Below, in pieces: positions 1,795 through 11,198 of a stretch of 38,847 nucleotides of DNA (positions are counted from its first letter, which is position 1; each line of letters opens with the position of its first letter). The notes beneath the pieces are model-generated. The model did not search any database. It was given only the letters and a program-made list of their open reading frames with translations, and had not been told where the DNA came from. Location of the stretch: positions 1 to 38,847 of the forward strand of contig JAFSGZ010000050.1 of the NCBI GenBank assembly GCA_017440545.1, written 5' to 3'. Origin of the DNA: Oscillospiraceae bacterium. Its GTDB lineage: Bacteria; Bacillota; Clostridia; Oscillospirales; Ruminococcaceae. A program made the position numbers and the translations under genes.

Positions 1795-1823
1795 TTGCTT
1801 TTTTAAAAATGCTATGCTATAAT
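1795..1823 (+). promoter_or_regulatory. Promoter of the rimP-nusA-infB operon
   Basis: TTGCTT (1795-1800), 17 bases, TATAAT (1818-1823), with a TGC extended -10 immediately upstream. The predicted transcript starts near 1830, leaving a leader of about 75 bases that contains the terminator at 1851-1881. Confidence 0.85.
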
Positions 1824-1850
1824 ACATACAGTTAAAATATCTTGAAAGGT

Positions 1851-1881
1851 AAAGAGTGGGCAAGCCCGCTCTTTTGTTTTT
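1851..1881 (+). terminator. Leader terminator (attenuator) upstream of rimP
   Basis: AAAGAGTGGGC (1851-1861) pairs with GCCCGCTCTTT (1864-1874) with one T-G pair and a minimal loop. It is followed by a T-rich run, TTTTGTTTTT. It lies between the promoter and the first gene, so it can only act on its own operon. In Bacillus subtilis the ylxS(rimP)-nusA operon is reported to be autoregulated by NusA-stimulated termination in its leader without a competing antiterminator. I likewise see no obvious antiterminator here. Confidence 0.8.
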
Positions 1882-1904
1882 GTTAAAACAAGGGAGGTAA
1901 AAAG

Positions 1905-2372
1905 ATGAAAAATTCGGTTAGCACAACCGATGTGGTAAGAGAAATCGTGCTTCCTGTCTGTGAGCAAATGGACCTTACTCTTTGGGATGTAACCTTTGAA
2001 AAAGAGGGCTCAGAGTGGTTTTTAAAGGTTTTAGTTGAAAAGAAGAACGGCAGCATTGATATTAACGAGTGCGAGGCTTTCAGCCGAGCTATTGACCCTC
2101 TCATCGACGAGGCAGACCCCATCGACCAAAGCTATTATTTAGAGGTTGGCTCTCCCGGGCTAAACCGCAAGCTTCGCTTAGAGGAGCATTTTAAAAGATA
2201 TATAGGCGAGGAAGTTTTAGTAAGGCTTATAAGACCGCTTGAGGATAAAAGACGAGAAGTAGGCGGTATTTTAAAAGAGTATTTAAAGGACAGCATAGTT
2301 GTAGCTCAAGACGAGGATGATATTAAAATTATGCTTTCCGACACAGCATTTGTTAAACTTTGTGACGACTAA
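1905..2372 (+). CDS. rimP: Ribosome maturation factor RimP
   Basis: RimP assists maturation of the 30S ribosomal subunit. The 155-residue size is normal. The N-terminal alpha/beta domain carries the conserved LWDVTFEKEG and the acidic helix INECEAFSRAI. The hallmark YYLEVGSPGLNRKL lies near residues 77-90, followed by an Sm-like C-terminal domain. GGGAGG sits just upstream of the ATG. It is the first gene of the operon, downstream of an attenuator-like hairpin, and nusA follows after 26 bases, the usual order in bacteria. Confidence 0.96.
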   Translation: MKNSVSTTDVVREIVLPVCEQMDLTLWDVTFEKEGSEWFLKVLVEKKNGSIDINECEAFSRAIDPLIDEADPIDQSYYLEVGSPGLNRKLRLEEHFKRYIGEEVLVRLIRPLEDKRREVGGILKEYLKDSIVVAQDEDDIKIMLSDTAFVKLCDD

Positions 2373-2398: not shown

Positions 2399-3472
2399 AT
2401 GAACAACGAATTTTTTGACGCACTAATTATGCTTGAGCAGGAAAAGGGCATTGACAGCACAAGCCTGCTTGAAAAAATCACAGTAGCCATTGAAAATGCA
2501 ATAAAAAAGGATTTTGGCGACCCTGAAAACATTATTATTGACATCAACCCCGAAAACAGAAAATTCAACATCGCAATTCGCAAAGAGGTTGTTGAGGAAG
2601 TCTTAAATCCCAAGGCAGAGATTACTTTAGAGGAAGCTTTAAAGTACAGCAAGCGCGCTAAAATCGGCGGACACGTTGATATGAAAATTAAAACCAAGGA
2701 TATGGGCAGAATTGCCGCTCAAAGTGCAAAGCACATATTCCGTCAGGGAATTAAAGAAGAAGAAAGAATGAACACCTTTAAGGAGTATCAAAGCAAGGTA
2801 CACGAGCTTATCTCTGCAACAGTAACCTCTATTGACGAGGCACGCGGCTCGGTTACTCTTGATATGGGCAGAGGCGAGCTTATGCTTCCTCAGTCGGAAA
2901 TGATTCCCGGCGAGAGCTTTACTATCGGTGAGCAGATTAAGGTTTATGTTGTCGATGTAAAGCGCAACACCGAGAAAACCTCAAGACCTCCCAAGATTAT
3001 GATTTCAAGAACACATCCCGGTATGGTTAAGCGTCTTTTTGAGCTTAACGTTCCCGAAATTTACGATGGTACAGTTGAAATTAAATCAATTTCAAGAGAA
3101 GCAGGTTCAAGAACAAAAATCGCAGTTTACAGCAAGGATGAAAATGTTGACGCTATGGGCGCCTGCATTGGTAATAAATCAAGCCGTATCGACAGCGTGG
3201 TAAATGAGCTTGGCGGCGAAAAGATTGACATTGTAAACTACAGTGACGACCCCGTTGAGTTTATAACTTCGGCACTCTCTCCTGCAAAGCACATCACAAA
3301 GGTTGAGCTTTTAGAGAGTGAAGAGGGAGTTAAAGCCTGCCGCGTAACAGTTGCGGATAATGAGCTTTCACTTGCAATCGGTAATAAAGGTCAGAATGTA
3401 AGACTTGCTGCAAGACTTACAGGTTATAAAATAGATATCCGTCCCGAAAGCGGATTTTACGGAGAAAACTGA
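2399..3472 (+). CDS. nusA: Transcription termination/antitermination factor NusA
   Basis: NusA binds RNA polymerase and nascent RNA, and controls pausing, intrinsic termination and antitermination. Domains read in order: an N-terminal RNAP-binding domain (about 1-125), an S1 domain (about 130-200, around TVTSIDEARGSVTLDMGRGE), KH1 (GACIGNKSSRIDSVVNELGG) and KH2 (LAIGNKGQNVRLAARLTGY). The 357-residue chain ends soon after KH2, so it lacks the acidic C-terminal repeats of enterobacterial NusA, as is typical of Firmicutes. GGAGGAG precedes the ATG. Its place behind a leader terminator suggests it represses its own operon when abundant. Confidence 0.97.
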   Translation: MNNEFFDALIMLEQEKGIDSTSLLEKITVAIENAIKKDFGDPENIIIDINPENRKFNIAIRKEVVEEVLNPKAEITLEEALKYSKRAKIGGHVDMKIKTKDMGRIAAQSAKHIFRQGIKEEERMNTFKEYQSKVHELISATVTSIDEARGSVTLDMGRGELMLPQSEMIPGESFTIGEQIKVYVVDVKRNTEKTSRPPKIMISRTHPGMVKRLFELNVPEIYDGTVEIKSISREAGSRTKIAVYSKDENVDAMGACIGNKSSRIDSVVNELGGEKIDIVNYSDDPVEFITSALSPAKHITKVELLESEEGVKACRVTVADNELSLAIGNKGQNVRLAARLTGYKIDIRPESGFYGEN

Positions 3473-3501: not shown

Positions 3502-3771
3502 ATGCAGACAAAGAAAATTCCCGAAAGAAGCTGCATAGGCTGTAAGGAGAAAAAACCAAAACGCGAGCTCATAAGAATAGTAAGAACTAAAGAAGGCTCG
3601 GTTGAGGTTGATTTTACAGGCAGAAAATCGGGCAGAGGCGCTTATATTTGTAATAGCGTGGACTGTCTTAATAAAGCTAAAAAGAGCCGCGCTTTAAGCC
3701 GCGCGCTTGAATGTGAAATACCCTCCGAAGTATACGAGCGTTTAGAGGGGGAGCTTTCAAAAAATGAATGA
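3502..3771 (+). CDS. rnpM: YlxR/RnpM family RNA-binding protein (DUF448)
   Basis: The small basic protein (89 residues) has the YlxR signature KIPERSCIGCKEKKPKRELI near the N terminus and the GRKSGRGAYIC motif near residue 50. Bacillus YlxR has recently been described as RnpM, a protein that binds RNase P RNA and modulates its activity; older work tied it to transcriptional effects. The cysteines C11, C14, C50 and C55 are spaced like a possible metal or fold-stabilising cluster, though family members do not all keep them. GGAGGG precedes the ATG, and the end overlaps ylxQ by eight bases. Confidence 0.92.
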   Translation: MQTKKIPERSCIGCKEKKPKRELIRIVRTKEGSVEVDFTGRKSGRGAYICNSVDCLNKAKKSRALSRALECEIPSEVYERLEGELSKNE

Positions 3772-4084
3772 TGCGTTTTTACTCTCTCTCGGCATTTGTA
3801 TGAAGGCTAAAAAGTTAAGTTACGGCTTTGACACAGTTAAAGAAAGCCTTCAAAGCGGCGCTGCTTGCGTGGTGTTTGTAACAAATGACATCTCGCAAAA
3901 AAGTCAAAAGGAAATCAGCTTTGAGTGCAAAAATGTGGGCGTTGAAATTATAAAAACTGCCTACGACACAGACACTCTCGGCGGCGCTATCGGAAGAAAA
4001 ACAAAAATTGTATCGGTAAACGACAAGGGCTTTGCCGATATGCTAAAACTTAAGCTCAGTTACAACAAGGAGGATATACTATGA
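3764..4084 (+). CDS. ylxQ: L7Ae-family K-turn-binding protein YlxQ
   Basis: The 106-residue protein is of the L7Ae/L30e fold. Bacterial YlxQ binds kink-turn RNA motifs and is tied to ribosome or RNase P RNA biology by its family and operon position. The sequence shows the short alpha-beta-alpha core. [19 protein letters not shown] provides the first helix pair, [11 protein letters not shown] the central strand, and [15 protein letters not shown] the RNA-contact loop and last strand. Its ATG lies inside the end of rnpM and its stop overlaps the infB ATG (ATGA), indicating translational coupling on both sides. Confidence 0.9.
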
Positions 4085-6576
4085 TAGTTAAATATAAAGT
4101 ATCAGAGGTCGCACGCGACCTTAATGTCGACAGCAAAGAAATTATAAACCTCTTGCTTAAATATGAAAGCGAACCTAAAAAGACCACAAGCACATTAAGC
4201 GAAGAGGAATTAAACTTAATATTCCAGCATTACACAACTGTAAAGGCTTTAAGTAGCTTTGACAGCTATTTTGAGGAAGGAAACCGTCATCAAAGAGTGA
4301 CTGCTTCTCAAAAAGAAGCTAAAAAGGAAGAACCCAAAAAGGCTGAAGTTAAAAAAGAAGAGCCTAAAAAAGAGGTTAAAAAGGAAGTAAAAGCAGAAAC
4401 TAAAAAGGAAGCACCTAAAAAAGAAGAGGTTAAAAAACAAGAGCCTAAGAAGGAAGCTAAGCCTGAAATAAAGGAAGAGCCTAAAAAAGAGATTAAGGCA
4501 GAGCCTAAAAAGGTTAGAAAAGAGGAGAATACTCCTAAAAAGCCTAAAGAAAAATTTGCAAATGTTATCAAAACCCGCTCAACCGAAACTATGGAAGTTC
4601 AAAAGCAGGTTAGAAAGGTTAACACCAGAACCGACTTTGTTGAGCTTGATAAGTATAACGAAAAATACGAAAGAATTGCACCCAGCAGCTCTTATAACTC
4701 GGATAATATCCAAAGAAAGCAAAAGCTTGCTCAAAAGTCACAGCAAAGAGGCAAGCCTATGTCTTCAAAGAGAGAAACCGAGGCTGATAAGCTCAGAAGA
4801 ATTCAAGCTCAGCAGCAGAAAAAGCAGCAGCTTAAGATTACAATTCCCGATGAAATTGTTGTTTCTGAGCTTGCAATGCGCTTAAAGGTTAAAGCAGCTG
4901 AGGTTATTAAAAGACTTATGCTTCTCGGCGTAATGGCAACCGCAAACCAGACAATCGACTATGACACTGCCGCTATGGTGGCTATGGAGCTTGATGCAAA
5001 GGTTGAAAAAGAGGTTGTTGTTACCATCGAAGAGCGTCTTATTGAGGATATAGAGGATAAGGCAGAGGATTTAGAGCCCCGTTCGCCCATCGTTGTTGTT
5101 ATGGGACACGTTGACCACGGTAAAACCTCTCTTCTCGATGCTATCCGTAACACAAGTGTAACCTCAACAGAGGCAGGCGGTATTACACAGCACATCGGTG
5201 CTTACAAAATCACCGCTAATGACAGAGAAATCACCTTCCTTGACACCCCCGGACACGAAGCATTTACAGCTATGCGTGCAAGAGGTGCACAGATTACAGA
5301 TATTGCAATTATCGTTGTTGCCGCAGACGACGGCATTATGCCCCAAACTGTTGAGGCAATTAACCACGCTAAAGCCGCAGAGGTTAGCATTATAGTTGCA
5401 ATCAATAAAATGGATAAGCCCGAAGCAAACCCCGAAAGAGTTAAGCAAGAGCTTACCGAGCATGAGCTTGTTCCTGAGGAATGGGGCGGCGATATAATTT
5501 GTGTTCCTGTTTCGGCTAAAACACACGCTGGTATTGATGAGCTTCTTGAAATGGTGCTCTTAACTGCCGATGTAAAGGAATTAAAGGCTAACCCCAACAG
5601 AGCTGCAAAGGGTATTGTTGTTGAGGCTAAGCTTGATAAGGGCAGAGGTCCCGTTGCAACTGTATTAGTTCAGAACGGAACATTAAATGCAGGTGATATT
5701 ATTATTGCCGGAACAGCAGTTGGTAGAGTTAGAGCTATGACCGACGATAAGGGTAGACGTGTTAAAGTGGCAGGCCCCTCAACACCTGTTGAGATTGTAG
5801 GACTTGGCGAAGTTCCCAGCGCAGGCGATATCTTTAACTGTGTTGAGGACGAAAGACTTGCAAGAGAGCTTGTTGAACAGCGTAAGCAGTCACTAAAAGA
5901 GGAGAAATTCTCTGCATATCAAAAGGTAACCTTAGATAACCTCTTCAGCCAGATTGAAGAGGGTGAAATGAAGGAGCTTTCGATTATCGTTAAGGCAGAC
6001 GTTCAGGGTACTGCCGAGGCTGTTAAGCAGTCACTTGAAAAGCTCACAAATGAAGAGGTTAGAGTTAGAGTAATTCACTCGGGCGTAGGCGGAATTAATG
6101 AGTCTGACGTTATGCTCGCAGATGCCTCAAATGCAATTATAGTAGGCTTTAATGTTCGCCCCGACACAACCGCTGATGATATGGCAAAAGATAAGGGCGT
6201 TGACCTTAGATGTTATCGTATTATTTACGACTGCATCGAGGAAGTAAAATCTGCTATGAAGGGTATGCTTGCACCTAAATACAGAGATGTTGAGCAGGGC
6301 AAGGCTGAGGTTCGTCAGGTTTATAAGCTTTCGGGCGTTGGCGCAGTTGCAGGCTGCTATGTAACTGTAGGTAAGGTTACAAGACACTCTAAAATTCGCG
6401 TTGTTCGCGACGGTATTGTAATTGCTGAGGATGAGCTTTCATCATTAAAGCGCTTTAAGGATGACGTTAAAGAGGTTGCTTCAAACTATGAGTGCGGCAT
6501 GGCACTTGAAAAGTTTAACGACATTAAAGAGGGCGACATTTTTGAGGCATTTATAACCGAGGAATATAGAGATTAA
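4081..6576 (+). CDS. infB: Translation initiation factor IF-2
   Basis: IF-2 is the GTPase that brings initiator fMet-tRNA to the 30S subunit and drives subunit joining. The 831-residue chain starts with an IF2_N module ([20 protein letters not shown]). A long Lys/Glu/Pro-rich linker of KKEEPKK-type repeats spans about residues 75-160. A second IF2_N (about 255-300) and the G domain follow, with GHVDHGKTS (about 341), DTPGHEAF (about 387) and NKMD (about 441). Domains II to IV lie beyond, including [20 protein letters not shown] sits ahead of the ATG, which overlaps the ylxQ stop. The linker uses almost only AAA/AAG and GAA/GAG codons and gives long spurious frames on both strands. Confidence 0.98.
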
Positions 6577-11160: not shown

Positions 11161-11198
11161 AAAATCCCAATGCCGTCGGCATTGGGATTTATTTTTTT
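11161..11198. terminator. Bidirectional terminator ending the rimP operon and degV
   Basis: AAATCCCAATGCCG (11162-11175) and CGGCATTGGGATTT (11177-11190) form a near-perfect 14-bp palindrome. A T-run lies on the right and (A)n-rich sequence on the left, which serves as a T-run for the minus strand. Confidence 0.92.

Follow-up and report, generated by a model that had tools for sequence, protein, structure and literature searches.

The closest described system is the rimP-leader, an attenuator reported by Naville and Gautheret in 2010, whose excerpted text includes Firmicutes and proposes NusA as the effector (PMC2965389). In Bacillus subtilis, NusA is reported to be autoregulated through NusA-stimulated termination in the leader (excerpts of a 2025 review, PMC12288461). 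Similarly, an excerpted study of S. agalactiae puts the termination point in the rimP leader 31 nt downstream of the start site and proposes feedback by NusA (PMC4448216). Work on B. subtilis terminators, available as a partial text, characterizes NusG- or NusA-dependent termination by A-U pairs at the stem base and breaks in the U tract, and adds a TTNTTT motif and a rule that RNA is released 7–9 nt below the stem (PMC8060035); rimP does not occur in the main text of that paper. Rfam also holds a family, RF01770, which by its name (rimP) has the same gene context and is represented by a 102-position model.

We analyzed a 38,847-nt stretch of DNA (hereafter the window), which is the whole of one contig of an incomplete 1.2-Mb genome. 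Among named relatives, the NusA of this genome is closest to that of Oscillospiraceae assemblies from the gut. A hairpin with a 10-bp stem and a 4-nt loop, followed by an interrupted T-tail, was found at 1851–1874, in front of rimP, and is an ordinary copy of the already published rimP-leader. The features of the locus are as follows.

1795..1800, + strand: −35-like hexamer TTGCTT, 3 of 6 matches to the consensus −35 hexamer TTGACA
1815..1823, + strand: extended −10 read from the sequence, TGC (1815–1817) then TATAAT (1818–1823)
1851..1860, + strand: 5' arm AAAGAGTGGG (hairpin call, RNA fold, model R1)
1861–1864, + strand: loop CAAG
1865..1874, + strand: 3' arm CCCGCTCTTT (hairpin call, RNA fold, model R1)
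1872..1884, + strand: interrupted U-rich tract TTTTGTTTTTGTT, read from the sequence
1892..1897, + strand: GGGAGG, Shine-Dalgarno-like sequence of rimP, read from the sequence
1905..2372, + strand: rimP, ATG at 1905 (NCBIfam RimP match, below the curated cut-off)
2399..3472, + strand: nusA, presumed feedback effector (NCBIfam TIGR01953, 381.9 bits, above the curated cut-off)
3502..3771, + strand: rnpM (ylxR) (NCBIfam RnpM, above the curated cut-off)
3764..4084, + strand: ylxQ, L7Ae-like (NCBIfam YlxQ match, below the curated cut-off)
4081..6576, + strand: infB (IF-2) (NCBIfam IF-2, above the curated cut-off)

Nothing essential in the window differs from the rimP-leader. As in the published element, the hairpin is located in the 5' leader of the rimP-nusA-infB operon, carries GGGC..GCCC in its stem (GGGCAAGCCC at 1858–1867, the GGGc(...)gCCC feature) and a T-rich tail, and is accompanied by no antiterminator or larger conserved element. 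The 30 nt from stem end to rimP start compare with a published range of 4–130 in the excerpted text, which likewise describes the motif as specific to rimP and absent from other terminators (PMC2965389). A sequence-only reading of this DNA had offered the layout as an extension of the idea to a distant lineage; the layout, with Firmicutes included, was already reported in 2010 in the same excerpts, which removes the claimed discovery. What the rimP-leader claim gains here is a firmer base: pairs that covary, a pattern specific to rimP and a comparison of the two strands. RF01770 (gathering score 47 bits) gave no match in the window by Rfam scan or in any of 21 genomes searched directly, and among 14 control genomes it matched only in E. 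coli. A permissive Rfam scan of 11 loci returned no rimP family, with two chance matches (mir-2831 and rne5) across the scans of the window and the loci. Going by PMC2965389, we infer that RF01770 represents the tandem gammaproteobacterial form.

The two promoter hexamers are separated by 17 nt, and the stem begins 27 nt after the −10, in agreement with the gap of about 30 bases given earlier. The same reading called the promoter near-consensus, which is correct for the −10 (TATAAT with TGC) but not for the −35 (TTGCTT, 3 of 6), and the stem it described as 11 bp is present with 10. A promoter scan of the window requiring at least 4 of 6 matches in each hexamer did not list the rimP promoter. 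Transcription would be expected to start at about 1830, judging from these elements, which leaves only about 20 nt before the stem, compared with a 180-nt leader in B. subtilis (cited in the excerpts of PMC2965389). Folding of the RNA 1845–1888 gave −14.5 kcal/mol (z −2.77 versus shuffles). The tail directly 3' of the hairpin is TGTTTTTGTT, a T-stretch with an interruption; the first three T of the tract 1872–1884 belong to the stem, where they face AAA at its base, and TTGTTT, which fits TTNTTT, lies inside the tract at 1874–1879. By the 7–9 nt rule, RNA release would be expected at about 1881–1883.

The hairpin with its T-rich tail proved to be real and widely conserved. The 110 class and phylum loci comprised the 30 rimP places with the best scores in the class, 40 regions of the class, each from a different family, and 40 hand-picked phylum regions. 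The stem GAGTGGG/CCCACTC, with at most 2 of 14 mismatches, preceded rimP in 104 of the 110 and occurred in none of 550 shuffled upstream regions, and is therefore far beyond chance. Stem location missed seven of the 110; the element is in fact present in three of them (L105, which had been wrongly trimmed, and L172 and L173, with longer loops), whereas L136, L142 and L147 are variants and L163 shows none. The remaining 103 loci, chosen by stem and not by tail, were used for tail statistics. Core arms were exactly GAGTGGG/CCCACTC in 83 of 103 loci across the phylum; in the order of the window they switch to GACTGGG/CCCAGTC or GGCTGGG/CCCGGTC by covariation, and the outer flanks of the hairpin show little conservation. 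Cultivable relatives carrying the hairpin include Acetanaerobacterium elongatum, Massilioclostridium coli and Clostridium methylpentosum (loci L034, L047 and L048). The order set comprised 67 loci (L002–L068) with 62 distinct upstream regions, of which L015, L017, L023, L029, L049, L056 and L064 had no match at up to 4 mismatches, several of them with diverged hairpins.

The element is also specific to rimP. The exact pattern GAGTGGGN{3,9}CCCACTCTT was present in 80 of 119 phylum genomes, 83 times in all, and 78 of the 83 places were at most 700 nt upstream of a RimP domain; the reversed control pattern was never found in the 119 genomes. We built model R1 from 39 order-level leaders and searched 61 relative genomes, where all 21 matches with E <1e-4 were located just upstream of rimP, most of them coming from the training set, with G002, G032 and G036 outside it. 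At E up to 0.001, R1 matched 47 of 196 genomes of the class; all but G107 and G251 were compared by eye, with 34 at rimP (in two of these, G231 and G236, the better score fell on the other strand there) and 11 elsewhere or in a genome in which no rimP was found. A second regulated operon was sought in 20 stretches around R1 matches and rejected: four are rimP leaders (L224, L225, L227 and L228), 12 of the other 16 come directly behind a reading frame on the + strand and resemble the usual terminators at gene ends, the remaining four being L213, L218, L221 and L226, and no regulon beyond rimP was seen among the 20. In one phylum genome, G284, the exact pattern recurs three more times away from rimP (C4, C12 and C15), with the same loop in either orientation; these copies are perhaps a repeat.

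The sequence-only reading had also pointed to the interrupted T tract, and the interruption is present in the window and conserved in relatives. Ordinary terminators were taken from 79 stem-only intergenic hairpins in the window plus twenty 20-kb stretches, with coding regions masked by reading frames of at least 100 aa and not by annotation; 51 with at least 5 T in 9 positions were kept. Counted from the last core C, T frequencies were.91.96.93.17.27.76.37.90.86.31 in the 103 leaders versus.86.88.84.82.71.67.63.67.59.37 in the 51 terminators. The break at positions 4–5 is thus conserved as "not T", position 4 being T in 18 of 103 leaders versus 42 of 51 terminators (Fisher 5e-15). TTTVNTNTT fitted 46 of 103 leaders and no ordinary terminator (0 of 51), while runs of five T occurred in 4 of 103 and 32 of 51, respectively. 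The typical tail in the order of the window is TTTC(C/G)TTTATGTT, and TTTATGT was exact in 20 of 39 order leaders. At least two terminal A-U or G-U pairs were found at the stem base in 78 of 103 loci, the window having AAA:TTT. The window tail is T-richer than the typical conserved one, with T at position 4 and one run of five T, and its terminator may therefore be stronger than those of most relatives. With regard to the NusA/NusG-dependent terminators described in the partial text of PMC8060035, the window shares the terminal A-U pairs, the interrupted U-rich tract and TTNTTT at a fitting place, but the full motif is not conserved across the phylum. Among the 103 leaders, T at the critical places averaged 3.92 of 5 at best versus 3.69 in ordinary terminators, so that TTNTTT was not clearly commoner. 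Neither the conserved interruption nor the GACTGGG variant is mentioned in the excerpts of PMC2965389, and no report of the interruption was found in literature searched by title and abstract, in which subscription papers are thinly covered. The interruption is a point that we did not find in print and that is worth a bench test, as it offers a simple test of why the rimP-leader terminator must be weak.

The hairpin probably acts as an attenuator of transcription in the manner published for the rimP-leader, by which NusA would limit its own production. Anatomy, conservation, RNA-level selection, rimP specificity, the conserved weak tail and the lack of a conserved antiterminator are directly supported here; termination itself, and NusA (perhaps with NusG) as its driver, would follow by analogy from the B. 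subtilis and S. agalactiae reports, and on those partial texts NusA-stimulated termination appears to be the best-supported reading. The NusA dependence reported as shown in B. subtilis (excerpts of PMC12288461) is in our case inferred, the two systems being alike in leader termination upstream of the nusA operon. In the proposed scheme, RNA polymerase would start about 20 nt before the stem, consistent with TGn −10 hexamers in relatives, which peak 20–49 nt before the stem core. The hairpin would then form and the polymerase would pause over the weak, interrupted U-tract. Plentiful NusA would stabilize hairpin and pause, so that most transcripts would stop at a leader length of about 50 nt; scarce NusA would allow readthrough into rimP-nusA-rnpM-ylxQ-infB, and NusA would rise.

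Several other explanations have to be weighed against the attenuator. In most members of the phylum the core forms a perfect dyad, as would be expected of an operator in the DNA shortly after the promoter. G.U and A.C departures should be equally common in a DNA dyad, however, and with arms located by sequence alone, with no pairing requirement, we found 57 G.U versus 2 A.C among non-Watson-Crick cells (43 versus 2 in the order set, 14 versus 0 in the class/phylum set), these figures being cells and not events from related loci that are not independent. Model R1 also scored 47.7 bits at 1849–1886 on the + strand of the window and 15.3 bits on the − strand. An operator is hardly credible on these figures and was rejected for the G.U preference, which places the + strand RNA under selection. 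Covariation in relatives, proposed earlier as a check, agrees with it: in alignment A1, both sides change in 5 of 11 pairs, a level reached in none of 500 shuffles, and one pair splits into 20 rows with G-C and 19 with C-G, although the rows were picked by similarity to the hairpin, so that pair counts lean toward structure (58 distinct picks, 40 after hand removal of 18 variants, wrong picks and near-duplicates, and 39 after L057, nearly identical to L056, was also left out). These comparisons indicate that selection is acting on the RNA. A leader peptide is suggested by a TTG-led frame in the window that, by eye, crosses the hairpin and reaches a stop where the T-tract ends. Inter-arm distances are evenly spread modulo 3 (37, 34 and 32 for remainders 1, 0 and 2), so that a conserved peptide frame is lacking; none of the three frames stays open throughout the loci (67, 48 and 55 of 106), and the genus relative L004/L032 has a stop in the TTG-led frame. 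The peptide was rejected for the even spacing and the lack of a universally open frame. With only some 20 nt between expected start site and stem, and TGn −10 sites peaking where they do, there is no room for an aptamer. The earlier statement that no competing antiterminator is visible holds in the 103 leaders, where candidate 6-mers were at chance level (2 of 103, 2.0 expected). We give a leader peptide or an aptamer or antiterminator switch very little credence. An ordinary terminator, insulating rimP from upstream transcription or ending the upstream gene, would account for the terminator-like pattern and is nevertheless very improbable. The gene upstream of the leader (827–1714, − strand, aldose-epimerase-like) is divergent and the terminator-like hairpin at 798–823 belongs to the gene preceding it, so that the hairpin at 1851–1874 ends no gene seen in the window. 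The promoter, moreover, stands between that gene and the hairpin, and most R1 matches elsewhere follow a stop codon (12 of 16) and mostly show unbroken T tracts.

The poor U-tract allows a further reading, in which the hairpin would mainly form a long pause stabilized by NusA and NusG and not release RNA. The weakest 8-nt hybrid had an estimated median of −5.1 kcal/mol in leaders versus −3.4 in ordinary terminators, and the order-typical tail given above points the same way. Yet 99 of 103 leaders keep at least 5 T among the first 9 tail positions, and a short terminated form arises from the rimP leader in S. agalactiae (excerpts of PMC4448216), which makes a mere pause rather improbable. The stem poses a different question, as its sequence is conserved in 83 of 103 loci more strictly than pairing requires. 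This exceeds the need of simple NusA-aided termination and hints at a sequence-reading protein. The operon encodes four candidates, NusA (through S1/KH), RimP, RnpM and YlxQ, which we take to be known or presumed RNA binders; one of them could bind GAGTGGG/CCCACTC and set termination, in which case NusA need not be simply a general hairpin helper. Naville and Gautheret argued likewise in the excerpted text (PMC2965389). The covarying arms in the order of the window show that the exact sequence is dispensable there, and we regard such a protein as unlikely, if less so than a pause. Going back to the attenuator, we offer tentatively, as a possibility with the odds against it, that the whole phylum keeps its rimP-leader at one constant strength below the optimum. 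Interruptions of the tail (TTT-V-N-T-N-TT) would be selected and combined with A-U pairs at the base of a rimP-specific stem, giving a conserved Nus-factor gauge that terminates poorly unless NusA, and perhaps NusG, is present; a protein of the operon would in addition recognize the stem sequence.

Some additional hairpins were observed. At 11162–11190 of the window, a perfect 13-bp hairpin with T-rich tails on both strands lies between convergent reading frames and is probably an ordinary bidirectional terminator. Three loci, L064 (Clostridium punense), L107 and L116, have a tandem form in which a second strong hairpin, AAAACGCAAC..GTTGCGTTTT, soon follows the rimP-leader hairpin, before rimP. 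In the subgroup L005, L006, L008, L009 and L011 the stem is extended to GGGCC-GNAA-GG(C/T)CC, with GNRA-type tetraloops and tails such as TTGTTTG. Finally, a second small hairpin folds in the window at 1874–1891, between the attenuator and the Shine-Dalgarno sequence, and, judged by eye, is also found at the same place in the genus members L003/L033 and L004/L032, the sequences differing among the three (TTGTTTT..AAAACAA, GTTTGG..CCAAAC and GTCTGC..GCAGAC).
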